This document shows, piece after piece, positions 2,358 through 18,705 of a DNA stretch of 64,000 nt (position 1 is the stretch's first letter; each line of letters opens with the position of its first letter). The notes beneath the pieces were generated by a model. It did no database searches, had not been told where the DNA came from, and saw nothing but the letters and a program-made list of their open reading frames with translations. The DNA is taken from NCBI RefSeq assembly GCF_900176365.1, contig NZ_FWXY01000005.1, forward strand, positions 186,001 through 250,000. The letters are read 5' to 3'. Source of the DNA: Desulfocicer vacuolatum DSM 3385 (GTDB taxonomy: Bacteria > Desulfobacterota > Desulfobacteria > Desulfobacterales > Desulfobacteraceae). Both the position numbers and the translations under genes were made by a program.

Positions 2358-4136
2358 TTATGCATCCTGCTGGGGACACATGTCAGCCTTGTCAATACCG
2401 GCAACGGCAACGGGTTTTTTCATGGCGTCACGACGGAACGGGTCGCCCAGTTCCATGTTGGTCATAATTTCAATGAAGGTTGTTTTACCTTCTTCCATCT
2501 GGGCTTTCACAGCAATTTTAAGCTGTTCTGTGACTTCTTCCATGGTAAAAGCCTGTACACCGTTCACACCACAAGCTTTGGCAACATCTGCGTAGGAAAC
2601 ATCGCGGTTGAGCTCTGTTCCAACAAAGTTGTCATCATACCACAGTGTGCTGTTTCTCTTTTCTGCACCCCAGTGATAATTACGGAAAATAATCATGGTA
2701 ACGGCAGGCCACTCTTCACGACCGCAGGCAGCCATTTCATTCATGGAGATACCAAAGGCACCGTCACCGGCGAAACCCACAACAGGGACATCAGGTTTAG
2801 CAATTTTTGCACCAAGGATGGCGGGGAAACCGTATCCACAGGGTCCAAACATACCGGGAGCCAGGTATTTACGGCCTTTTTCAAAGGTGGGATAAGCAGC
2901 ACCAAGGGCACAGCTGTTTCCAATGTCGGAAGAGATGATGGCATCTTCGGGCAGACCTTCAACAATGGCACGCCATGCCATGCGTGAAGTGATTTTATCG
3001 GGATCTGCTTTTTGAGCACGTTCGTTCCAGGTTGTGCCGGGATCATCATTCTCGTGATCCATACCGGCCAGTTCAGCAGCCCAGTCAGCTTTGATTTTTG
3101 CAACAGTGGCTTTACGTTCTTCACGGTCGGCATCACCGGCTGTGGCAGAAAGTTTTGCCAGAATGCCGTTGGCAACTTTTTTGGCATCACCCACAATACC
3201 CACAGACACTTTCTTGGTCAGACCGATACGATTGGGGTTGATGTCCACCTGGATGACCTCAGCTTCTGTGGGCCAGTATTCAATGCCGTATCCGGGCAGG
3301 GTGGAAAAGGGGTTCAGACGGGTACCAAGGGCAAGAACCACATCTGCCTTGGCAATAAGCTGCATGGCAGCCTTTGATCCGTTATAACCCAGTGTTCCGG
3401 TGAACATGGGATGGCTTCCGGGAAAGGAGTCATTGTGCTGGTAACCACAGCATACAGGCGCATCCAGACGTTCAGCCAATGCAATGGAATCTTCAATGGC
3501 ACCGCCGATAACAACACCGCCACCGTTAAGAATTACGGGGAACTTGGCGTTGGAAAGGAGGTCTGCAGCACGGTTAAGGGCATCTTCACCACCGGCAGGA
3601 GCTTCGAAATCCACAACAACGGGAAGATCAATGTCAATTACCTGGGTCCAGAAATCACGGGGAACGTTGATCTGGGCAGGGGCAGAAGCTCGTTTTGCCT
3701 GGATAATAACCCGGTTAAGGACTTCAGCAACACGGGAAGGATGAAGCACTTCTTCCTGGTAGGCAACCATGTCCTCAAATACAGCCATCTGGGGAACTTC
3801 CTGGAAACCACCTTGACCCATGCTCATGTTGGCAGCCTGGGGGGTTACCAGAAGCAGGGGAGTGTGATTCCAGTAAGCTGTTTTTACAGGAGTAACAAAG
3901 TTGGTGATGCCAGGGCCGTTCTGGGCAATCATCATGGACATCTTACCGGAAGCCCGGGTAAAACCGTCTGCCATGGTACCGGCATTACCTTCATGTCCAC
4001 AATCCCAAAAAGAGATCCCTGCTTTGGGGAAAAGGTCAGAAACAGGCATCATTGCTGATCCGATAATACCAAACGCATGTTCGATGCCGTGCATCTGGAG
4101 TACTTTTACAAACGCTTCTTCTGTGGTCATTTTCAT
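2358..4136 (-). CDS. xsc: sulfoacetaldehyde acetyltransferase
   Basis: A 592-residue thiamine-diphosphate enzyme converting sulfoacetaldehyde and phosphate into acetyl phosphate and sulfite. It closely follows remembered Xsc sequences: FGIIGSAMMPVSDLFPKAGI, HEGNAGTMADGFTRASGKMS, QNGPGITNF, AYWNHTPLLLVTPQAANMS and QGGFQEVPQM. The ThDP-binding motif GDGAFGISMNE is in the C-terminal half. The ATG at 4136 has GGAG nine bases upstream; the longer reading frame lacks such a site. Length fits the family. It lies downstream of the BCCT gene, but a terminator and repeat between them indicate its own promoter. In a sulfate reducer the sulfite could be respired and acetyl phosphate used for ATP or acetyl-CoA. 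No enzyme making sulfoacetaldehyde from taurine (Tpa or taurine dehydrogenase) was recognised in the window. Confidence 0.92.
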   Translation of the reverse strand: MKMTTEEAFVKVLQMHGIEHAFGIIGSAMMPVSDLFPKAGISFWDCGHEGNAGTMADGFTRASGKMSMMIAQNGPGITNFVTPVKTAYWNHTPLLLVTPQAANMSMGQGGFQEVPQMAVFEDMVAYQEEVLHPSRVAEVLNRVIIQAKRASAPAQINVPRDFWTQVIDIDLPVVVDFEAPAGGEDALNRAADLLSNAKFPVILNGGGVVIGGAIEDSIALAERLDAPVCCGYQHNDSFPGSHPMFTGTLGYNGSKAAMQLIAKADVVLALGTRLNPFSTLPGYGIEYWPTEAEVIQVDINPNRIGLTKKVSVGIVGDAKKVANGILAKLSATAGDADREERKATVAKIKADWAAELAGMDHENDDPGTTWNERAQKADPDKITSRMAWRAIVEGLPEDAIISSDIGNSCALGAAYPTFEKGRKYLAPGMFGPCGYGFPAILGAKIAKPDVPVVGFAGDGAFGISMNEMAACGREEWPAVTMIIFRNYHWGAEKRNSTLWYDDNFVGTELNRDVSYADVAKACGVNGVQAFTMEEVTEQLKIAVKAQMEEGKTTFIEIMTNMELGDPFRRDAMKKPVAVAGIDKADMCPQQDA

Positions 4137-4429
4137 TTTGAAATTCTCCAATAAATATATAATGTCTAACCCTGATTTTGCAGGGTAAAAAAAGATACCC
4201 GCCATTGTAAGCCGGTATATCGTGATTAGTTGTTAGATATCTGATACATCACACATCAGGTCCCTGTCAAGCAAAATTTTCACAATATTTTTTATTTTAA
4301 TGGGCTTGAGTATTAGAGCGCCTGTTTTACGATAATTTAATTTTAAGGTTTCAGGTTTTAAGAAAATTTTTACTGGCGTTTATATTGAACAACTCATGGG
4401 TCCCAAGTTATCATTTCGTATACCACACA

Positions 4430-4604
4430 CGGGATGTTCGCTTCGTGGGGTCAGGCTTTCGTTATTGACATTATCGAGGTTTTTTTCGTTGGCAAAGGCC
4501 TTGGTCGATAACATCAATAACAAAAGCCTGACCCCGTCGGCACACTGAGCCCATCGGTACATTTAAAAATGCCAGCTTTGAAATAAAGCCCGAAAGTTGA
4601 GTTT
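4430..4604. repeat. repeat family C, copy 1 (long hairpin, left end degenerate)
   Basis: The core at 4447-4535 is a long imperfect hairpin: GGGGTCAGGCTTT and AAAGCCTGACCCC arms, extended inward by GTTATTGA/TCAATAAC and TTATCGA/TCGATAA. The right end carries CGAAAGTTGAGT as in copy 2 at 52580-52744; the matching left end is not recognisable. It lies between the BCCT gene and xsc. I see no gene in the AT-rich remainder of 4137-4776. Confidence 0.85.
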
Positions 4605-4708
4605 CAAACAAACACATTATGTGATGACAGTTTAGAGAACTTAATGGCTGAAAAATTGAACAATCTGCACCCTGAATTTTTTTTTGCCTTTTCAGAGATC
4701 ATAAATAA

Positions 4709-4746
4709 AAAACCCCCACTGCTTTAAAATACAATGGGGGTTTTGG
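4709..4746 (-). terminator. hairpin terminator after the BCCT transporter gene
   Basis: AAAACCCCCA and TGGGGGTTTT arms surround an AT-rich loop about 30 bases after the stop codon. It separates the transporter transcript from xsc. Confidence 0.8.
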
Positions 4747-4776
4747 AAGAATTAATATTTACTGAACCGAAAAGTT

Positions 4777-6354
4777 TTAAATTTTACCGGCCTTGGTATC
4801 CCGAAGCATGAAATACACCGAAAAGATAAAAGCAATCCCCACAAAAAAGAAAGGGGCACCCACCACAATGGCCAGACTCTTAATGGCCGTGAATCCACCG
4901 GTGAGCTGGAAGATAATACCGGTAAGACCAATGACAATGCCCCAAAGAAGACGCATGGAGATTTTGGGATCACGATCCCCTTTGGACATTTGCATGGCCA
5001 CAAAGAAAGATGCGGAATCAGAGGTTGTAACAGCAAAAATAATGATGTTAAACAAAACGATGAGGCTCAACCACCAGCCGCCCTTCATGTTTTCAAGGAG
5101 CATATACACGCCCGTTTCAGGATTGCTTTGAACACTTTCCCACAGGGGTACAGAACCTGTGATATCCACATAGGCGGCAGATCCCCCCCAGATGGAGAAC
5201 CAGAGAATGGCAAGAAGAAAGGGAACCAGAATAACCCCCAGCATAAATTCACGCAGGGTACGTCCTTTGGAAATACGGGCGATGAACCCACCGCAAAAAG
5301 GAATATAGGAGATCCACCACAGCCAGTAAAAAACAATCCACCAGCCAAGCCAGTCTCTTTGCTCAAAGCTACCCGCATCTGTCCAGAAGGTAAATTTCAG
5401 CAACCCACCAAAATAGTCACCACCCATCTGAACCATCATGTTAAACAGATATTGTGTGGGGGCCTGTCCAAAAAACAGAAGAATCACAAGCACACAACCT
5501 GCCAGGATCATGTTGGTCTGACTCAGGATCTTGATTCCTTTTTCAACACCCGTTGCAGCACTGATCACATAGGCCACAATAAGCACCATCATGACAATGA
5601 CTTTTCCGGGATTGTCAAGGTGAATGCCAAATACTTTTTCTATACCAAAACTGATGGATGCAACGCCAATACCGATCATGGCGGCATTACCGCCAATGGT
5701 ACCAAGGGCTCCCAGTCCATCGGCCACACGGCCCCATATGCTTGTGTTGCAACGATCCCCAAGGATACCGTAAAGTCCGGTGGCAACAGTCATGGGTTTG
5801 CCCAGACGATAGGAAGGAAAGGCAATGGCCCAGGCAGCCAAAGCAAAAAGCGCCCATCCATGAACACCCCAGTCAAGCAGGGTCATATGAATGGCCGTGG
5901 GAACACCGGCGGCTTTACCGGCAGCCCCCATGTCAATGACGTGGGAGGATTGATAGAGGTGATACAGTGGTTCTGTCACACTGTAAAAAACAAATCCAAT
6001 GCCAAGGCCACAGGAAAAAAGCATGGAAATCCAGGCAGAATAAGAAAAATCCGGCACATCGTCATCTTTTCCCAGTTTTAAATCAGCATAGGGGCTGAAC
6101 ATCAGGTATATACAGAACAAAAGGGTGACGCCCACCCCGAGAAGAAAGGCCCAGCTGAAATTGAAAATTAGAAAATTACGAATGGTGACAAGGGTTTTTG
6201 CGGTGCCGTCGGGGAAGAAAAGAGCGCAGATGAGAATGGCAATAAAAGATAAAAGTACCGGCCAGAAAAGAGTGGGGTCGTAATGGCCGAAAAGCTGACC
6301 GATGATTCCTTTGGGGGTGTCCTGGGTTTCTTCAGTTGCCAGGGTGGATTCCAT
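4777..6354 (-). CDS. BCCT-family betaine/choline/carnitine-type transporter
   Basis: A 525-residue inner-membrane protein with about twelve hydrophobic segments. The family hallmark is clear: WWIVFYWLWWISYIPFCGGF continuing into IARISKGRTLREF. An earlier WGVHGWALFALAAW and SSDSASFF-like sequence (TTSDSASFFV) also fit. BCCT carriers import quaternary ammonium compounds such as glycine betaine, choline or carnitine, usually with sodium or protons. The ATG at 6354 has AGGAG seven bases upstream; the longer frame to 6423 adds residues lacking a ribosome site. It lies 148 bases downstream of mttB on the same strand, so it probably brings in the substrate for the methyltransferases. The exact substrate cannot be read from sequence. 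Confidence 0.93.
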   Translation of the reverse strand: MESTLATEETQDTPKGIIGQLFGHYDPTLFWPVLLSFIAILICALFFPDGTAKTLVTIRNFLIFNFSWAFLLGVGVTLLFCIYLMFSPYADLKLGKDDDVPDFSYSAWISMLFSCGLGIGFVFYSVTEPLYHLYQSSHVIDMGAAGKAAGVPTAIHMTLLDWGVHGWALFALAAWAIAFPSYRLGKPMTVATGLYGILGDRCNTSIWGRVADGLGALGTIGGNAAMIGIGVASISFGIEKVFGIHLDNPGKVIVMMVLIVAYVISAATGVEKGIKILSQTNMILAGCVLVILLFFGQAPTQYLFNMMVQMGGDYFGGLLKFTFWTDAGSFEQRDWLGWWIVFYWLWWISYIPFCGGFIARISKGRTLREFMLGVILVPFLLAILWFSIWGGSAAYVDITGSVPLWESVQSNPETGVYMLLENMKGGWWLSLIVLFNIIIFAVTTSDSASFFVAMQMSKGDRDPKISMRLLWGIVIGLTGIIFQLTGGFTAIKSLAIVVGAPFFFVGIAFIFSVYFMLRDTKAGKI

Positions 6355-6502
6355 GATTTCTCCTAAAATTAAGATTAATACTGGATGCCCCTGCCACCCA
6401 ACCAACCGGTTAACAGGGGCCATATAAACGTCATTGCTGCGGGAGACTTAACCTGGCAATTACGGAGCCTTCCGATGTTCCGGGTAAATCTCCCATTTGC
6501 AA

Positions 6503-7993
6503 TTATTTTTTTGCTTCTCGTTCTTTTTCTTCCTGGATATCAGCTTCCACGTTTTCAACAATGGAGCGCATCTGGGAGCGAACTTCATCGGAAAGCGGTG
6601 TGGGCTTATGATTTTTCAGGATATCCCGGGCTTTGTCCAGGGCACGTTCATGCATGGTCTGGCCGCCTGCGGCTTTCCATTTATCCCGGACCCTGCGGTC
6701 GATGAGTTTGGGCTGGGACATGGTTCTCATGTTCTGAAAGGTGTGCTTTTCAGTGATGAACTGATTAAAGGGTCCTACCTTTGAAATCAGATCCACTGCA
6801 AGTGTGTCCTCGCTGACGGGGATACCGTTCACAACATGCTTGATCATCTCAGCAAATTCATTGTCCATGACCAGCTGGCCATAGTCAAAAGTGACCCCTG
6901 ATTCCAACATACCCAGGCCATAAATCAGATTGGCACCTGCCAACGCTGTGAGGAGACCTGTTAATGTTTTCTCATGGGCTGCCTGTCCATCGGGTACTTT
7001 GGAGTCAGCCTAACCACCGGCGACCCATGAGGGAAGCAGATAATAGGTGGACAGCGCTGCCACACCGGCATTGATCATGGCGCATTCAGGGGAACCCACC
7101 GTTGCCGTGGCCATTCTCAAGTCCAGGGGACAGGTGGAACTGCCGAACATCATGGGAGTGCCTTTTCGTACGGACTGTCCAAGAACAATACCGGAAAGCA
7201 CTTCAGCATTGTGAATAACCAGGGTACCTGCCAGGGTCACCGGGGCAGAACCGCCAGCCAGGGCCTGGGTCAGTACATTGACCAACACACCGGCCCTTGC
7301 GCCTGCAATGATAATCTCGGTGCAGTCACGGACCAATTTAAGGGGGCTGATGGGACAGGTGTTAAATGAAATTATGGGACGTTCCCGAAGTTTATCATGT
7401 CCGCCTGAAATGGCGGCGGCCAGATCAATGGCCCCCTGCATGAGTTTTCCGTTACCGGCACCGTGGAAGCAATGTTTGGTGGTGTTGCTCAAAAAGGCTT
7501 CGGCATTGTGCAGGGGCTGGGCATCCTGGTTTACATCATGGGCACCCACGGCACGCTCGTATACGTCAATGCCGTCCAGGTAATCCACCAGGACTGCACT
7601 TTCTTCAACGTCTTTTTTAACGGTTTCCCTGAGTTCTCCTGAATTAATATCAACAATGGAAATACCTTCTCCAAAGTTGGTGAAACCCACCCGATTGTTA
7701 CCCAGCAGATAATCTTTTTCCGGATCTCTTCCGCAAAGATTCACTGTGCCCGGGGCGGAACGGATGGCATCTTCCACCATATATGGGGGAAATTTTACAA
7801 TGTCGGTCTTGGGGTCCACAATGGCACCGGCACCGGCAAGGATTTCCCTTGCCTCTTCGTCTTCAAAGTAGACGCCGGTGTGCTGGAGCACATCCAGGGT
7901 GGCCAAATGAATCTCATAGAGTTCATCCTGGCTGAACATGTTCAGGCTCAAACCTCCGGTCTGGAGATAGCCTGCATGCTGATTTCGTTTCAA
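6503..7993 (-). CDS. mttB: trimethylamine methyltransferase with in-frame UAG (pyrrolysine)
   Basis: Two abutting minus-strand frames are one gene interrupted by TAG at 7010-7012. Around the codon the protein reads PSWVAGG-[UAG]-ADSKVPDGQAAHEK, which matches canonical archaeal MttB, where UAG encodes pyrrolysine. The frame continues through ALAGANLIYGLGMLESG and GIPVSEDTLAVD and ends with TAA, giving about 496 residues, the normal MttB length. MttB transfers a methyl group from trimethylamine to a corrinoid protein. The likely start is TTG at 7993, seven bases after GGAGG; TTG at 7999 is too close to that site. No corrinoid protein gene is adjacent, and no pylTSBCD genes are in the window. 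The adjacent BCCT gene suggests a quaternary amine supply. An alternative is a true nonsense mutation, but conservation on both sides argues against decay. Confidence 0.93.
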
Positions 7994-8174
7994 AATCAAA
8001 CCTCCTTGATTTTAAAGGTGTTTTAACGTTTAACCGAGAAGTGTCTTCTTTGAATTCATGATTCAAAAAAGACATGGCTATTTACTGATTTTAAAAAAAT
8101 TTAAAACAGCGTGGCAGATTGCCATTTTTTTTCATTGAAAATTGCATACGGAATGGATAGATCTGCAATTTTTT

Positions 8175-9605
8175 CTAACTTTTTTGTGCTTCGATATAAC
8201 GTTCAAGATCTTGATCAATATCATCGGAAATCATTTTATCCGGACATTGGCTCAAAATTTCCTTATAGGTTTCATTGGCCCGTGTTACCACGTCCTTTTC
8301 ACCTTTTTTCTCCCATTGTTCATAGCTGTCACATGTGGAAACAGAGGGGGTCCAGAAATTTCTACACTGTTTCATGGTGTCTGGCTGCATGAGGTATGAT
8401 CCCCCGTGACCCACATCCTGAATGGCTTTTCTGGAATAATCGGCATCAAAATTTTGAATCCCGCCAACGGCCAGGGCGGCCCTTGCCATTATTTCGTCAT
8501 CAATGATGAATTTCTCATAGGAAACCGTCATGATGGCATCTAAAATACCATAACACTCATTAACCATGTTCACCCCGGCCATGGCCAGCATGAGATAGTT
8601 CTGCATGGTTTCGTAACCGGCCTGGCAATCCACGTCCTTGGCATCGGTGAGCCCTGCCATGCACCGCGAAGGAATATCATAAAGCTCCCGGGCCAGCTGG
8701 ATACCCACCATATTTATAAGAGTGGATTCAGGAGAGCCTGTGATGTAAGAAGCGCTGCGCATATTGGGAATGGCCGAAGCCGGAGAATAGATAAAAGGTG
8801 TTCCCGGATTGATGAGCTGGGACAATACAAGTCCTGCCAGAATTTCAGCATTTTGAAGGGTCACAGTCCCCATGGGATTCACAGGAGAGGTAACACCGGC
8901 CATGGCGCACACCAATATCATGATGGGCTGGCCGTGTTTGGCATAGGCAAGAAGGGTCTCGCAGGGAATTTCATCATACTTCAGGGGACTCAGGGGATTA
9001 AGGGAAACACCGATGCGTTTTTTCTCCAGCACATCATCCCCGCCCCCCATGGATATTTTGATCATATCAAACATCTGCCCCACCTCTTTCTGGGTGCCCA
9101 CATAACCAAAAAGCGGTTTGTCCGTGTGGGTGAGCAGCTGACGAAAAATATCCAGATATCTCAGCGGATGGGTCACATCACTTGGTTCCACGGGAATCTG
9201 ACCGTTGATGTTACACACCTTGCTGTGCTGGGCAAGTTTGTAAAGATTAATCAGGTCAGCTTTGGTGCCAAGTCGCCTGCCTTTTTCCTGGTCCTGGATG
9301 TAAATGGGGCCGTTGTTCAGACTGACATGGATGCCCTTCTGGCCTTTTCCCACAATGATATTTTTTTCGGGATTACGCCCTTCCCACTGAAAACTGTTGG
9401 GTGCAGAGGCAATGGCCTTTTCCACCATCTCCGGGGGAATAAATACAATATCGCCCTGGACCCTGGCACCATGTCTCTTGAAAATTTCAAGACATTCCGA
9501 CGATTGAAACACAATGCCGGTGTGGGAGAGAATATCCAGAGTGGCTTCATGGATATTTTCCAAGGTATTTTTATCAACAACTCTGAAGCTGGATGCAATG
9601 CTCAT
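8175..9605 (-). CDS. non-pyrrolysine MttB-family methyltransferase (MtgB-like)
   Basis: A 476-residue COG5598/MttB-superfamily protein. It shares the fold signatures of its neighbour (HEATLDILSHTGIVF, NAEILAGLVLSQLINPGTPF, ITGSPESTL). At the pyrrolysine position it reads RCMAGLTDAKDVDCQAGYET with no UAG. Members lacking pyrrolysine include glycine betaine:corrinoid methyltransferases (MtgB) and enzymes for other quaternary amines, so demethylation of glycine betaine or a relative is the best guess. It lies 181 bases upstream of mttB on the same strand, with no gene between. The stop codon is TAG, unusual to note beside a pyrrolysine gene; readthrough would add about 27 residues. The start is ATG at 9605. 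Substrate remains unproven. Confidence 0.85.
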   Translation of the reverse strand: MSIASSFRVVDKNTLENIHEATLDILSHTGIVFQSSECLEIFKRHGARVQGDIVFIPPEMVEKAIASAPNSFQWEGRNPEKNIIVGKGQKGIHVSLNNGPIYIQDQEKGRRLGTKADLINLYKLAQHSKVCNINGQIPVEPSDVTHPLRYLDIFRQLLTHTDKPLFGYVGTQKEVGQMFDMIKISMGGGDDVLEKKRIGVSLNPLSPLKYDEIPCETLLAYAKHGQPIMILVCAMAGVTSPVNPMGTVTLQNAEILAGLVLSQLINPGTPFIYSPASAIPNMRSASYITGSPESTLINMVGIQLARELYDIPSRCMAGLTDAKDVDCQAGYETMQNYLMLAMAGVNMVNECYGILDAIMTVSYEKFIIDDEIMARAALAVGGIQNFDADYSRKAIQDVGHGGSYLMQPDTMKQCRNFWTPSVSTCDSYEQWEKKGEKDVVTRANETYKEILSQCPDKMISDDIDQDLERYIEAQKS

Positions 9606-10204: not shown

Positions 10205-11953
10205 TTAGACCGTATCTTGAGGAGGATCTTCCAATTGATATTTTTCAAGCTTTCTATAGAGTGTGGGACGACTGACCCCAAGAAGCCTGGCTGTCTTTGC
10301 CTTGTTCCACCCTGTTTTTTTAAGAACAGACAGCAATTCCTCTTTTTCCATGGAAGGAGAAACCGTACGGCGGTGCAGATCAGGCATGAGAGCATCTTTT
10401 ATTTCACAGGGGATATGCTCCATTTCAATGGTTTCGGTGCGGCAAAGAACAAAGGCATGTTCAACAGCATGTTCCAGCTCCCTTACATTACCGGGCCACT
10501 GATAGGCCGTGAAGTTCTGCATCACTTCATTGGAAAGTGCTGTGATGGGTTTATTGTACCGTTGCTGAAATTTTGTAATAAAATGATTGACCAGAAGGGG
10601 AATATCCCCATGGCGCTCCCGCAGGGGGGGCATTTTAATCTCCACCACATTGAGACGGTAGTAAAGATCTTCCCTGAAATCTTTCTTTTTCACCTCGTCT
10701 TTTAAATTTTTATTGGTGGCGGCAATGATCCGGGTGTCCACCCGAATGGGTGTGGTATCCCCTACCCTTTCAAATTCCCTGTCCTGGAGAACACTTAAAA
10801 GTTTAAGCTGCATTACCGGAGAAATTTCACCGATTTCGTCCAAAAAGATGCTGCCCTTATCACACAGTTGAAACCGGCCGATTTTATCTTTCATGGCACC
10901 GGTAAAAGCCCCCTTGACATGGCCGAACAGTTCACTTTCCAGAAGATTCTCAGACAGGGAAGAACACCTTACAGTGACCATGGTATGCTGACATCGTCGG
11001 CTTAACTCATGAATTTCCCTGGCCACCAGGTTTTTTCCTGTACCTGTTTCACCGGTGATCAACACAGTGGCATCGGTGTCTGCCAGGGCACGGATCAAAT
11101 CATATACTTTATGCATTTTCAGGCTGTGGCCAATGAGACGGGTAAAGGGAGAGGACTCTTTAACAAGTGTTTCAAGAAAATCAAGCCGTGTCATATCCTT
11201 TACCACCAATGCGGCCCCCAGGGATTTGCCATGACTGCTGAGCAAGGGAGAACAGGTAATGCTTATCACCATGGGTGTTCCATTTGATGCGATGAACTCC
11301 TTTTTATCCACATGCATGGCCTCCCTTTTTTCCAGGGTGGCGTCAATGGTCCCAAGGCAGCTCATAAGACAAGGATTGTTTAAAGCATCAATTTTACACC
11401 CCCTAAGGGCATTTTCTTCCACCTGACAAATGGTATTTGCAGCATGGTTGGAGGCAATAATCCGTCGACTGTTATCAACGGTGATGATGGCGTCATTAAC
11501 ACTTGCAAACACAGCATCCAGATGATTTCTGTACCGATCTTTTTCTGCGGTTAATTTTTCTCTTTCATCAATGAGTTGCTTATTTTTCAGGGCCGATCTG
11601 GCCACCCTTAACAGGGTGTCCTTTATAATGGGTTTAACCATGTAGTCATAGGCCCCCAGACGCACCGCTTCTGAAGCCGTGTCAATGCTGGGCTGCCCCG
11701 TGATCATTATCACCGGGGTGTAAAGCTGAAGTTCCCGGACTTTTTCCAGTACTTTGAGCCCATTGTCATCCCCCAGAAGAATATCGGTAAAAATGATATC
11801 GGGAAACCGGCGATGGATCAACTCAAGTCCCACAGAAAGGGTTTCTGCACAGTCCACCTGGTATCCGTCATTGACCAGAAAGGTTTTAAATGAGTACCGG
11901 ATACTCTCCTCATCATCAATCACAACCACTCTGGGGGCATTTTTTACGCTCAT
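10205..11953 (-). CDS. sigma-54-dependent response regulator (REC-PAS-AAA+-HTH)
   Basis: A 582-residue NtrC-type activator. Order: receiver domain (VVVIDDEESIRYS, acceptor Asp in IIFTDILLGDD, Lys in YMVKPI) to about residue 120, a PAS domain at about 150-260, an AAA+ domain with Walker A GETGTGKN and the sigma-54-contact motif GAFTGA, and a C-terminal Fis-type helix-turn-helix (AKTARLLGVSRPTLYRKLEK). The ATG at 11953 has GGAG nine bases upstream; a TTG further up is less likely. It is the last gene of a three-gene operon after the sensor kinase and a betaine-binding-type protein. It probably activates the neighbouring mttB-like/mttB/BCCT genes or xsc in response to an extracellular quaternary amine; the target promoters are inferred. 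Confidence 0.9.
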   Translation of the reverse strand: MSVKNAPRVVVIDDEESIRYSFKTFLVNDGYQVDCAETLSVGLELIHRRFPDIIFTDILLGDDNGLKVLEKVRELQLYTPVIMITGQPSIDTASEAVRLGAYDYMVKPIIKDTLLRVARSALKNKQLIDEREKLTAEKDRYRNHLDAVFASVNDAIITVDNSRRIIASNHAANTICQVEENALRGCKIDALNNPCLMSCLGTIDATLEKREAMHVDKKEFIASNGTPMVISITCSPLLSSHGKSLGAALVVKDMTRLDFLETLVKESSPFTRLIGHSLKMHKVYDLIRALADTDATVLITGETGTGKNLVAREIHELSRRCQHTMVTVRCSSLSENLLESELFGHVKGAFTGAMKDKIGRFQLCDKGSIFLDEIGEISPVMQLKLLSVLQDREFERVGDTTPIRVDTRIIAATNKNLKDEVKKKDFREDLYYRLNVVEIKMPPLRERHGDIPLLVNHFITKFQQRYNKPITALSNEVMQNFTAYQWPGNVRELEHAVEHAFVLCRTETIEMEHIPCEIKDALMPDLHRRTVSPSMEKEELLSVLKKTGWNKAKTARLLGVSRPTLYRKLEKYQLEDPPQDTV

Positions 11954-12011
11954 TTTAGTTTTCTCCAATTCTGGGGTATGGCATCATTTGCCACTTGAAT
12001 ATTCAATTTTT

Positions 12012-14219
12012 TCATCGGGCTATGGGAAGATCAATGCTTACTTTTGTCCACTCTCCTTCCACGCTTTCAATATTAAGCTCTCCCCGGTGTTCTTCAATGA
12101 TGCCGTAACTGATGCTCAGACCAAGTCCTGTGCCGTGGCCCGGCGGTTTGGTGGAAAAAAAGGGATTACACAGTTTGTCCATGATTTTTTCAGGAATCCC
12201 AATGCCCCGATCCATGAAAACGGTACGCACCATCTGTTGATCATTGTTTGTCACGCTTTCACAGGAAATAATCAACTCTTTACGGGCATGGGAACCGGAG
12301 AATTTCTGATTTAAGGCATATCTTGCATTGCCAATGATATTTAAAAAAATCTGCTGCACCTGGTGGGTGACGGCATGGCACAAAGGTACCCCGCCCCCAG
12401 CCTCCCAGATAACCTTAATGTTGTCTTTTTTTACCATGGCCTGGGTCAGATCCAGAACATCATCAATGATTTCAGAAATGTTAACCGCTTCTTTTTCTTC
12501 ATTTCCTTCCCGGGCAAAGGAGAGTAATTTGCTGACAATATTGGCAATGCGCATGCTTTCGGCAATAATTCTCTGGGGCAGTTCAACATCTTCCTGGCCG
12601 CTTCCCCGGGTGTCTTCTATGATCTGGGCATAATTAATAATGCCGTTGATGGGGTTGTTGATCTCATGGGCCACGCCGGCGGCAAGTTCTCCCAGGGCTG
12701 CCAATTGGGCATTACGAAGAACTTCCTCACGCATTCTTTTCTTTTCTGCAAGGTTTCGACATACCAGAACCACCCGCCGGGGTGTGCCTTCCCTGGCCCA
12801 TAAAACCACATTACTGGTGCACCAAAAATCCATTATTTTACCGTTCACCGGTATTTTAAGCTCACTATCACTTTCAATACCCGTGGCAAAACAATTTTTT
12901 ACAATGCATGACCCCGGGGGAGGATTGTTGGGATAAAGCAGATCAACATATTTTTTTTCACCTGCCCCGGATCCAAACAGCTCTTTTCCCTTATCATTGA
13001 TCCACAGAATATCGCCATTTTCATGGATCATCATCATGGCATCGGCCACGGAATTGATGATACCGTTTATTTTTTCTTCACTGTTTTCCAATGCTGTCCG
13101 GGCGTTGTCCAAGGCCTCCACTCTGTTTTTTATATTGGCAAAAGAAGCTTTCAAGGCCCGGGCCATGGAGTTAAACTGCCGGGACAAAACCTCTATCTCA
13201 TCTCCGGTTTTTCGCACAGGTATTTCCGTAAAATCTCCCTGGGCAATGCGGTCTGCCCCCTGGGTGAGAACCCGTATGGGATTGAGATGCTTTTTGATAA
13301 AGAAAAAAACCAGGCCTGCGGAAACAATGCCGCCACACCATAGCACCGCTGTGAACAGGCGGATGTAAAAAAGAATGAGTTTTTCCACCTCTGTCCAGTT
13401 TCCCTGGGTGATCACCCCCCACCTTGTGCCGGGAACCGGTGCAAATCCGGAAATAAGCTTAATTCCAGATTCATCAAGGGAAAATGTGGCTCCGGTTTTA
13501 CCTTGAATCACCTTTTGTACTGCTTCCTGATCCATTAAACTTTGACCGAGAAGGGAGCTGTGACGATGGTAAAGCACATGGCCGTCACCGTCCACCAGAT
13601 AGCCGAAACTGCTTTTTCCTGATTTAAACTCCAGAACCTTGGTATAGGTGGTGCCAAGGGTGGAAAATTCCACAGAACAAATGCCTGCCACCACCCCCTG
13701 GAACCGGGACCGGTCATCAATAACAGGCACACCGATGAGGATGGCGTCCCTTCCAAGGGGGGCATGAAAAAAAATATCGGAAAACACAGGTCTGAGGTTA
13801 TTTTTAAGGGATTTAAAGTGGGAAGGAGAAGGGAAAAAATGCCCTTTTTTCTGAAAACCCAGGGGATAAGACCATACCACCCGGCCTTTTTTATTAAAAA
13901 TCACAATACCGCCGTCAAAAAAATGAATTCGACTTCTGGCCTGCACCAATAACGGTTCCATGTGGGTAAAAGACATCTCTTTACAGGCCTTGGTGTCTGC
14001 AATGGTCTGAAGAAAATAGCTGTATTTTTGAAGATTTTCCGACAGACGGACAGCGGCAATTTCAGCAAAGGCGGCATCACGACGTTTCACCACATCAAGG
14101 GCGCTGTTCTTAATGGTAAGATGGGACATGACAGGAACAATACTCACCACAAACAAAAATGGAATCAAGGCCCAAAAAATAATTTTAATGGAAATACGTT
14201 TAAAGTTCATTTGTTTCAT
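12012..14219 (-). CDS. membrane sensor histidine kinase (Cache-HAMP-PAS-HisKA-HATPase)
   Basis: A 735-residue kinase. A first membrane segment (IIFWALIPFLFVVSIVPVMS) is followed by a periplasmic region of about 250 residues resembling a double Cache domain, then a second membrane helix, HAMP, PAS, HisKA with the phospho-histidine in GVAHEINNPING, and a HATPase with FLNIIGNARYAL and GTGLGLSISYGI. The ATG at 14219 overlaps the upstream stop codon by one base (TGATG), showing translational coupling to the solute-binding protein gene. It should phosphorylate the regulator encoded next. The Cache domain, the partner binding protein, or both could sense the ligand. Confidence 0.92.
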   Translation of the reverse strand: MKQMNFKRISIKIIFWALIPFLFVVSIVPVMSHLTIKNSALDVVKRRDAAFAEIAAVRLSENLQKYSYFLQTIADTKACKEMSFTHMEPLLVQARSRIHFFDGGIVIFNKKGRVVWSYPLGFQKKGHFFPSPSHFKSLKNNLRPVFSDIFFHAPLGRDAILIGVPVIDDRSRFQGVVAGICSVEFSTLGTTYTKVLEFKSGKSSFGYLVDGDGHVLYHRHSSLLGQSLMDQEAVQKVIQGKTGATFSLDESGIKLISGFAPVPGTRWGVITQGNWTEVEKLILFYIRLFTAVLWCGGIVSAGLVFFFIKKHLNPIRVLTQGADRIAQGDFTEIPVRKTGDEIEVLSRQFNSMARALKASFANIKNRVEALDNARTALENSEEKINGIINSVADAMMMIHENGDILWINDKGKELFGSGAGEKKYVDLLYPNNPPPGSCIVKNCFATGIESDSELKIPVNGKIMDFWCTSNVVLWAREGTPRRVVLVCRNLAEKKRMREEVLRNAQLAALGELAAGVAHEINNPINGIINYAQIIEDTRGSGQEDVELPQRIIAESMRIANIVSKLLSFAREGNEEKEAVNISEIIDDVLDLTQAMVKKDNIKVIWEAGGGVPLCHAVTHQVQQIFLNIIGNARYALNQKFSGSHARKELIISCESVTNNDQQMVRTVFMDRGIGIPEKIMDKLCNPFFSTKPPGHGTGLGLSISYGIIEEHRGELNIESVEGEWTKVSIDLPIAR

Positions 14220-15289
14220 CAATCCATTAGGGGATCATCCAGGGCAAGGGAGATTTTTTTCCGGGCCTCCGGGGTGACCCACCCATGCCAGCTTGAACCG
14301 TGTTTCAATAAAAAAGTGCGGGCAGCCGCTTTAAAATTAGGTTGATTTTTGTTGCTGAGAAATAAAATCTCCTCAAGATGTTCAATATTTACACTCATTT
14401 TTCGAAACATTTTTGCAATGTCCGGTGCTTTTTCTATCAATTGTTTGTGGGCAATTTTCAAAACAGAATTGTTTCCATAGGCACAGGCGGTATCAATGGA
14501 TAAAGGGCCGTTCACACCGGATGCCTGATTGATATTATACCAGATTGCCGAGTCATAGGGCGGTTCTTTAAGTATATACCACTTATGGGTGGCCATGAGA
14601 GCGTTGGGTCTCCAGTAATATCCAAACACCGGAATGTGCATTTCCATGGCATTTTCATAAATGGCCCGCAGGGCTTCAGGAGAGGAGGGCGAAACAGTAT
14701 TGAAAAAACGATCCAGCCCATAGGCCTTGAGCTTTACTCTATTGATATCCCTACAGGTCCACCCAAAGATACAGTTAAAAAACAAACCCTTGGAGGGATC
14801 TTCCGGGTCAAGGAGTTTTCGCCATTGATGTTTCATGTCAAACACTGTTTCAATGCTGTTTTCCCTGGCAAACCATTCAGGAATAATCCAGAACTGGTGC
14901 CCGGTTGCGTAAAGGGTGCCAAGATCCACCACCCTGCCCGATGCAATGGCTTTTTCATACCACACAATGTTATTTTCCCGCCACATTTCAAGGGTAATAT
15001 CAATGTCTCCGTCCATGATCTTTGAATGCACCTCTTTTATGGTACTTTCCACCTTTTCCACCGGGTATCCATACCCCTTTTCAATGATGAAAACGGCAAT
15101 TTCATTGTTAAATTTTTGAATATCAATTTGATCGTCATGGATGTGAATAACCGTGGACGGGATATCTGGACCGCTTAATTGTTCATAGGAAACAATGACA
15201 GCCACACACAGTGTCAACAGAATCATGATGGTGACAAAACGGCCACGGCGGAAAATCGGGAAAAATATATTTTTTAGATATGTTTTCAT
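14219..15289 (-). CDS. membrane-anchored OpuAC-type betaine/choline-binding protein, likely sensor partner
   Basis: A 356-residue protein with one N-terminal hydrophobic segment (FVTIMILLTLCVAVIVS) and a periplasmic substrate-binding domain of the OpuAC/ProX family. Typical segments are DGDIDITLEMWRENN, ATGHQFWIIPEWFA, FGWTCRDINRVKLKAYGLD, IPVFGYYWRPNALMATHKW and EEPPYD-like KEPPYD. No lipobox cysteine is seen and the N-terminus looks like an uncleaved anchor. No ABC permease or ATPase gene is near; instead the gene starts an operon with a kinase and a regulator. This suggests that it delivers ligand information to the kinase instead of transporting it. The ligand is most likely a quaternary amine by family; binding residues were not modelled. 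Confidence 0.85.
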   Translation of the reverse strand: MKTYLKNIFFPIFRRGRFVTIMILLTLCVAVIVSYEQLSGPDIPSTVIHIHDDQIDIQKFNNEIAVFIIEKGYGYPVEKVESTIKEVHSKIMDGDIDITLEMWRENNIVWYEKAIASGRVVDLGTLYATGHQFWIIPEWFARENSIETVFDMKHQWRKLLDPEDPSKGLFFNCIFGWTCRDINRVKLKAYGLDRFFNTVSPSSPEALRAIYENAMEMHIPVFGYYWRPNALMATHKWYILKEPPYDSAIWYNINQASGVNGPLSIDTACAYGNNSVLKIAHKQLIEKAPDIAKMFRKMSVNIEHLEEILFLSNKNQPNFKAAARTFLLKHGSSWHGWVTPEARKKISLALDDPLMD

Positions 15290-16816: not shown

Positions 16817-18238
16817 ATGAAAAATACAGATAATGAATTACGACACAACTTGCAATCCCAGGATTTCGGTCTGATATTTGACGCCATCATGGCCCACTCC
16901 CGGGACGGTCTGTTTGTGGTGGACAGATCCGGTACCGTGGTCATGGTGAACCGGGCCACGGAAATGATGTTTGATTTTAAAGCGGCGGACATCCTGGGCA
17001 GAAATGTGAGAAATCTGGTGACAGAAGGCTTTTACAATCCCTCGGTTTCCCTTATTGTTATTCGGAAAAAAACAGCTGTTTCCCTCATCCAGACCACCCG
17101 GCACGGCAAAAAGATTTTATCCACAGGCATTCCCATATTTGATGATAAAAAAAACATTAAATATGTTCTGGTCAATGACAGAGACATCTCTTTAATCAAT
17201 TCCCTGGCAGAAAGCCTTTATCCTGAAGATCTCCAGGAGGATGGCTTTCACATGGATCTTTCCGATTTCGGCGTTGCCGCCACAGAGCTGCAGGGTCTTG
17301 TGATTAAAAGCCCGGCCATGGAAAAAGTGATTCGCACAGCAGTGCGGGCCGCCCGGTTTGACATTCCCCTGATCATCACCGGTGAATCAGGGGTGGGAAA
17401 AACCATGATCGTTAAATTGATTCATCAGCTTTCAGAACGAAGAAATCATCCCTTTGCTGATCTTAACTGCGGTGCCATCACTGAATCTCTCATTGAATCA
17501 GAATTGTTTGGCCACGAAAAAGGGGCATTCACAGGTGCATCCGCCGCCGGTAAAAAAGGGCTGTTTGAAATGGCTGACAAAGGTACCCTGTTTCTGGATG
17601 AAATTGGAGAAATTCCCCTGGCTGTCCAGGTAAAGCTTTTGAAGTTTCTTGAAAAAAAAGAGTTCATGCGGGTGGGCGGGACCCGGACCGTTTCCATAGA
17701 TACCCGGATTATTGCCGCCACCAACAGAGATCTTGAAGCCATGGTGTCCCAGGGCCGGTTCAGAAGCGATCTTTATTTCAGACTCAATGTGGTTCCCATT
17801 GAGATTCCCTCCCTGCGTGAACGAAAGGAGGAAATCCTTTCCCTGGCGCACTTTTTTCTGGAAAAGTTTAATAAAGAATTTAAAACTTATAAAGGCCTGT
17901 CCGCAGCTGCTGAAAATGTGCTCCAGGAGTACGCCTTCCCCGGCAATGTCCGGGAATTGGAAAATATCATGCAAAGATTGGTTGCCATGACCGAAGGAAA
18001 TACCATTCAGGTGAGGCACCTGCCTGATATGATGTCAGGAAAAGAAAAATCCGAATCAAAGACTGTTTCCAGCCCCAGGGATTACCAGGAAAAAATCAGT
18101 GATTTTGAAATTAAAATGATTATGGATGCCGTAAAAAAGTACGGCAGCCAGCGGAAAGCCGCCAAAGCCCTGGGAATCAGTCAGTCTACCCTCTCGCGCA
18201 AGCTTAAAAACACCACATCCCCCCATATTATTCATTGA
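16817..18238 (+). CDS. PAS-domain sigma-54-dependent transcriptional activator
   Basis: A 473-residue enhancer-binding protein without a receiver domain. An N-terminal PAS domain (HSRDGLFVVDRSGTVVMVNR, about residues 20-130) is followed by an AAA+ domain with Walker A GESGVGKT, the GAFTGA loop, Walker B TLFLDEIGEI, and a Fis-type helix-turn-helix at the C-terminus (RKAAKALGISQSTLSRKLKN). The PAS domain probably senses a cytoplasmic ligand or redox state. The gene sits directly upstream of a strong -24/-12 promoter with paired dyad sites serving the dimethylglycine-dehydrogenase-like gene, which is its most probable target. Start ATG at 16817. Compare the other sigma-54 activator at 10205, which has a receiver. 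Confidence 0.92.
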   Translation: MKNTDNELRHNLQSQDFGLIFDAIMAHSRDGLFVVDRSGTVVMVNRATEMMFDFKAADILGRNVRNLVTEGFYNPSVSLIVIRKKTAVSLIQTTRHGKKILSTGIPIFDDKKNIKYVLVNDRDISLINSLAESLYPEDLQEDGFHMDLSDFGVAATELQGLVIKSPAMEKVIRTAVRAARFDIPLIITGESGVGKTMIVKLIHQLSERRNHPFADLNCGAITESLIESELFGHEKGAFTGASAAGKKGLFEMADKGTLFLDEIGEIPLAVQVKLLKFLEKKEFMRVGGTRTVSIDTRIIAATNRDLEAMVSQGRFRSDLYFRLNVVPIEIPSLRERKEEILSLAHFFLEKFNKEFKTYKGLSAAAENVLQEYAFPGNVRELENIMQRLVAMTEGNTIQVRHLPDMMSGKEKSESKTVSSPRDYQEKISDFEIKMIMDAVKKYGSQRKAAKALGISQSTLSRKLKNTTSPHIIH

Positions 18239-18439
18239 GGGGTACCCTCCCCATCATTTCTCGCCTGTCACCAGAAACCTTTAATCATGCATGCTATAAA
18301 AAGTGACAGGGTCAATCATAAGCCGGATCACTATATGTGGGATAAAATTTATTAACTCGCAAGAGCTTGTAATTACAGGTATTATTTTTACCTCTAAAAT
18401 TTTATCATAAAATGACCGACGTTATGACTAAGCCCAAAG

Positions 18440-18489
18440 TGATGCATACAGACATCACTTTCATGAAAAATGATGCATGCGGACATCAT
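18440..18489 (+). promoter_or_regulatory. paired activator-binding sites (UAS) for the sigma-54 promoter
   Basis: TGATGCATACAGACATCA (18440-18457) and TGATGCATGCGGACATCA (18471-18488) differ at two positions. Each is a TGATG/CATCA dyad, and the two are 31 bases apart, about three helical turns. They lie about 220-265 bases upstream of the -24/-12 element, the usual arrangement for an enhancer-binding protein. In the remainder of 18239-18705 I see only AT-rich DNA. Confidence 0.75.
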
Positions 18490-18705
18490 ACCCATGCCCA
18501 TGAAATTATTTTAGCTTATTTTTACGCTATTAAAAACAAAGCAATCAATAATTAAAAAATAACGATCTCATCAACACATCCGATGCCACATACCCACAAA
18601 GCACTGTAATTAAATCAAAAAAACAGATCAATTTGTTTTTGAGGCAAACTGAACGGCAAATAAAACTCAGTATATCTAATTGTTTTTCATCAAAAGACAC
18701 CACAA

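Follow-up and report, generated by a model that had tools for sequence, protein, structure and literature searches.

Pyrrolysine-containing trimethylamine (TMA) methyltransferases, together with a full set of pyl genes, have been described in marine Deltaproteobacteria (Kivenson et al., 2021; PMC8318568). Genomes in that study carry up to five TMA methyltransferase copies, with a corrinoid protein gene within 10 genes of the TMA methyltransferase, and the system includes a dimethylamine methyltransferase with in-frame pyrrolysine (Pyl) and a second methyltransferase of the metH family (PMC8318568). Pyrrolysine occupies position 327 of 485 in the deltaproteobacterial enzymes and position 334 in the methanogen enzyme (PMC8318568). 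The locus described here comes from the same bacterial group, in a genome that likewise has the full pyl set, several predicted Pyl-MttB proteins, predicted Pyl dimethylamine methyltransferases and a second methyltransferase. It differs from the published system in that the pyl genes lie on two contigs and in that no corrinoid protein gene was found near the mttB at 6503-7993. The Methanosarcina-type MttB (7XCM, 7XCL, 7XCN) can be aligned with our protein over ~480 residues, with its Pyl site in register at 334. In the methanogen route, methyl groups go on to coenzyme M, whereas the present genome pairs a methyl-tetrahydrofolate-type methyltransferase with a corrinoid protein. The glycine betaine methyltransferase MtgB (2QNE, 9YCE), a non-Pyl homologue, belongs to the same superfamily but encodes an ordinary amino acid where Pyl would stand; mttB2, the upstream partner of mttB, falls in this non-Pyl part of the family.

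We analysed a window of 64,000 nucleotides on contig C39 of the Desulfocicer vacuolatum DSM 3385 genome (5.04 Mb assembly, 98% complete). With a probability of about 0.96, mttB would be one functional gene with an internal UAG that is translated as pyrrolysine. The CTA at the UAG site on the plus strand reads TAG on the minus strand. If TAG is counted as a residue, the frame runs for 496 codons from a TTG at 7993 to a TAA at 6503-6505 and is otherwise open; the TTG, 7 nt after GGAGG (AAGGAGGT upstream), is the probable start. The TAG lies in the context PSWVAGG-O-ADSKVPDGQAAHEKT and is residue 328 of this frame, in agreement with the first-pass annotation, which had the first fragment end at residue 327. 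That annotation also anticipated that automatic gene calling would report two fragments, and a standard-code ORF call does yield two pieces, 7010-7999 and 6503-6943. RNA structure 3' of the UAG gave no significant signal (z -0.75). Features of the locus, and the genes elsewhere in the genome that bear on it, are listed in Table 1.

Table 1. Features of the mttB locus, the pyrrolysine machinery and related genes. Positions without a prefix are those of the window.
Feature	Position	Strand	Evidence
mttB, pyrrolysine-type trimethylamine:corrinoid methyltransferase (predicted)	6503..7993	minus	TIGR02369, PF06253, phmmer to 7XCM, sequence
In-frame UAG (codon 328), predicted pyrrolysine codon	7010..7012	minus	alignment, paralogues/orthologues, pyl genes
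mttB2, non-pyrrolysine MttB-superfamily methyltransferase, upstream partner of mttB	8175..9605	minus	PF06253, 391 bits
BCCT-family quaternary amine transporter, directly downstream of mttB	4777..6423	minus	PF02028, 467 bits
Sigma-54-dependent response regulator, upstream of mttB2 and mttB	10205..11968	minus	Response_reg, Sigma54_activat, HTH_8
dCache-HAMP-PAS histidine kinase	12012..14222	minus	Pfam; conserved neighbour
OpuAC/ProX-like quaternary amine binding protein	14219..15289	minus	PF04069, 118 bits; homologue in L042
pylT	C29:188243-188315 (= L026:6244-6316)		covariance model 80.3 bits, E 3.9e-19; ARAGORN
pylSn	C29		136 bits, NCBIfam cut-off 51
Methyl-THF:corrinoid methyltransferase	C29		333 bits, cut-off 259
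pylB	C29		549 bits, cut-off 348
pylC	C27		388 bits, cut-off 248
pylD	C27		250 bits, cut-off 150
pylSc	C27		326 bits, cut-off 178
Sense-codon MttB near the Pyl group	L014:5035-6453 (own genome, C71); L100:10544-11965, 17180-18601; L101:2057-3475, 3548-4960		

The read-through product scores 736 bits against TIGR02369, the NCBI trimeth_pyl equivalog (cut-off 525), and 298 bits against Pfam MTTB (PF06253). The TIGR02369 match is single and continuous across the TAG (residues 16-483 on profile positions 2-469 of 469). A phmmer search of the PDB matched mttB to 7XCM (E 5.7e-124) and placed its residue 328 opposite residue 334 of the trimethylamine methyltransferase structures 7XCM and 7XCL. That residue is entered as K in 7XCM and, in 7XCL and 7XCN, as X, which denotes a modified or unusual residue. 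The initial proposal that the UAG sits at the pyrrolysine position is thus borne out.

The first-pass annotation saw no mttC or pyl genes in the window and placed the machinery elsewhere in the genome. We likewise found no tRNA, mttC or pyl genes in the window, and a search of the genome for pylS, pylBCD and tRNA-Pyl recovered them all: pylT, pylSn, pylSc, pylB, pylC and pylD form a complete set. On C29, pylT is followed within ~4 kb by pylSn, a corrinoid protein, a methyl-THF:corrinoid methyltransferase and pylB; pylC, pylD and pylSc are on C27. The pylT gene has a CUA anticodon, a 6-bp anticodon stem and a GCCA 3' end (model alignment, sequence). It was detected with a covariance model built on the tRNA-Pyl sequences of Methanosarcina barkeri and Desulfitobacterium hafniense; ARAGORN independently calls the locus tRNA-Pyl, anticodon cta, so that the identification does not depend on the sequences used for the model. 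Because the whole pyrrolysine machinery is present elsewhere in the genome, the UAG is almost certainly read as pyrrolysine. A genome lacking pylS and tRNA-Pyl, which would have refuted the first-pass annotation, is not what we observe, and both its observation and its interpretation are upheld.

The pyl genes form two unlinked sets, pylT-pylSn-mttC-methyltransferase-pylB at C29:188243-192319 (L026) and pylC-pylD-pylSc at C27:60757-64009 (L020); in several relatives they form a single cluster. Both sites are well inside long contigs, which makes it improbable that the split arose from contig ends in the assembly. In a related genome (G001), pylT and pylSc are likewise apart, by ~295 kb. The corrinoid protein beside pylSn and pylB (L026:7592-8224) has its best matches to MtbC, MtgC and pyl_corrinoid, all below curated cut-offs; corrinoid protein homologues are also present at L011 and L013, in the vicinity of further TAG-mttB copies. 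The weakest general tRNA match, at C44:21357, was rejected as a tRNA-Pyl because it is located in a prophage-like region and has an anticodon other than CUA. A locus on C44 (L009) carries a C4 antisense RNA above the gathering score at 2382-2558 and an isrK-like match below it, which points to a prophage, as well as a poor tRNA-like match at 13358-13425.

The UAG of mttB is one of several in the genome. Exactly one TAG occurs in five of the 21 full-length MttB-family ORFs, in the same alignment column each time, and the remaining 16 have a sense codon there. Three Dimeth_Pyl genes (MtbB, dimethylamine-type) contain one TAG each in the context GLOxGVGD. The methylamine methyltransferase genes with a UAG thus number at least eight, five of them mttB and three mtbB. 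The genome also holds an MtmB-family gene without UAG (L121, C76:3165-4511, 296 bits); tetramethylammonium demethylation was recently shown for MtqB, a non-Pyl MtmB homologue (PMC13044021).

On the same strand as mttB lie genes for a ProX-like binding protein, a dCache histidine kinase, a sigma-54 response regulator, MttB2 and a BCCT transporter. MttB2 scores 340 bits against TIGR02369, below the cut-off of 525, and has Leu at the Pyl column; it also neighbours mttB at six other loci (L040, L041, L042, L046, L059, L113). A BCCT orthologue adjoins the mttB orthologue in L040, L041, L044 and L113, and the sigma-54 regulator is a conserved neighbour in L039-L041 and L113. The kinase is probably the partner of this regulator, and the binding protein is possibly part of the sensing set; the three may together control mttB. 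A search for sigma-54 promoters gave matches no more frequent than chance. Downstream of the BCCT gene is a sulfoacetaldehyde acetyltransferase gene (xsc; 2358-4205, minus strand, 906 bits to TIGR03457), which suggests use of taurine or other sulfonates; xsc was not found beside mttB in the relatives' flanks examined.

This neighbourhood bears on the alternative that survives best, namely that UAG encodes pyrrolysine but this mttB copy acts on a tertiary amine other than TMA. The cluster of MttB2, Pyl-MttB, BCCT transporter and kinase/regulator recurs in several genomes, and the divergence among the five Pyl-MttB copies of the present genome suggests specialisation. We nevertheless regard the alternative as improbable. 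The match to the TMA-methyltransferase equivalog is at full strength, TMA is to our knowledge the only established substrate of Pyl-MttB, and the BCCT and quaternary amine genes would also fit a choline/betaine-to-TMA regulon. Its most explicit form is a two-step pathway in which the BCCT protein would import a quaternary amine, MttB2 would demethylate it first and Pyl-MttB would take the resulting tertiary amine. We consider this slightly less probable again; if it were true, some bacterial Pyl-MttB copies would be demethylases of substrates other than TMA.

Far less weight attaches to a true nonsense mutation or a sequencing error, which would leave a pseudogene or two fragments. Such an event would account for the two pieces of the standard-code call, and TAG also serves the genome as a normal stop codon (at the loci sampled, 34 of 233 long ORFs have apparent TAG ends, TAG-split methyltransferases included). 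Against it, the column is TAG in the five paralogues, and near orthologues in other, independent genomes share it: those 85-87% identical to mttB, from Desulforhopalus singaporensis (86%), a Desulfobacula MAG and a Desulfobacteraceae MAG, all have it. The genome from a marsh in Singapore in the earlier study (PMC8318568) is probably that of D. singaporensis. Across the present and related genomes, the column is TAG in 33 distinct MttB ORFs, and a scan of the window for stops flanked on each side by 100 or more open codons in the same frame found mttB as the sole TAG join; from these two results we conclude that the TAG is not due to chance. The three longest TGA joins in the scan (62573, 34535, 19769) were rejected as recoding candidates, since they connect neighbouring genes that are unrelated or stretches that match no family.

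Selection also argues against a pseudogene. In seven comparisons with homologues, the part of mttB 3' of the TAG has pN of 0.11-0.29 versus pS of 0.55-0.72, close to the values 5' of the TAG. By this measure, the stretch beyond the TAG is translated and constrained as protein, under strong purifying selection. The TAG column in paralogues and orthologues and the selection on the 3' part lead us to reject a pseudogene or sequencing error, and the full pyl gene set and the near-perfect co-occurrence of TAG-mttB with pylS tell against it as well. In a sample of 58 genomes (the present one and 57 relatives), with TAG-mttB counted above the family cut-off, TAG-mttB and pylS agree in 57: 13 have both, 44 neither, one TAG only and none pylS only (Fisher p 4e-12, with genomes treated as independent, though they are not). 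The sole TAG-only genome (G010) is 81% complete in 1180 contigs and has pylT. For TAG-mttB and pylT, 14 genomes have both, none TAG only, two pylT only and 42 neither (p 1e-11, again with genomes treated as independent, though they are not); this count leaves out weak matches in G054 and G056 that are not tRNA-Pyl by sequence. In one close relative (L113 in G034), an 85% identical mttB orthologue lies ~2.3 kb from pylSc, in ~16 kb that hold the orthologous cluster, two tRNA-Pyl, mttC, the methyltransferase, pylB, pylSn, pylC, pylD and pylSc. Amber read-through occurs in bacteria generally, but near-cognate suppression by a tRNA other than tRNA-Pyl has next to no likelihood here, given a dedicated tRNA-Pyl and synthetase in the genome and a residue that is the known catalytic pyrrolysine.

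We therefore return to mttB as a single gene with a pyrrolysine codon, for which we infer actual decoding, TMA as the substrate and methyl flow to tetrahydrofolate. PylB, PylC and PylD would convert lysine to pyrrolysine, and the split synthetase PylSn plus PylSc would charge the CUA-anticodon tRNA-Pyl. The charged tRNA would read UAG 328 to yield the 496-aa enzyme. By homology, its pyrrolysine ring would activate TMA, and the methyl group would pass to a corrinoid protein encoded elsewhere and on to tetrahydrofolate. Points that weigh against this reading are the other genes with apparent TAG ends, the lack of a significant RNA structure 3' of the UAG, the lack of a corrinoid protein gene close to mttB and the below-cut-off scores of the corrinoid protein beside pylB.

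The history of the codon can be approached through the MttB proteins that lack it. A quick tree was built from 67 MttB proteins with the TAG residues masked; on it, the Pyl/sense label requires two changes (shuffled mean 22.8). Five sense-codon proteins, with A, A, A, V and H at the site, fall inside the Pyl clade on this tree, and all but one of them pass the trimeth_pyl cut-off. Their position would suggest loss of the UAG. A constrained tree with all Pyl proteins in one clade is slightly better (p-AU 0.65), and both UAG loss and a sister group to Pyl-MttB are possible.

Two relatives bear traces of the tRNA. A genome of another genus (G016; 100% complete, 2 contigs) has an intact pylT, identical to the present one at 73/73 bases, with pylSn (82%) and pylB (81%) at L099:8596-10822; pylSc and a TAG-containing MttB were not found in this genome, and its pyl genes are apparently the remnant of a lost pyrrolysine system. 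A second genome (G030), without pylS, carries a decayed tRNA-Pyl with degraded T arm and 3' end (L112:6864-6936, 59 bits), and one of its MttB-family genes, below the family cut-off, contains a TAG.

The present mttB is an ordinary addition to the system already published for marine relatives (PMC8318568), and it leaves current understanding of pyrrolysine unchanged. It is a further example of UAG-containing methyltransferase genes being split by standard gene callers. D. vacuolatum joins those members of the marine sulfate-reducer group whose genomes have an expanded genetic code, a point relevant to how sulfate reducers compete with methanogens for the methylamines in sediment.
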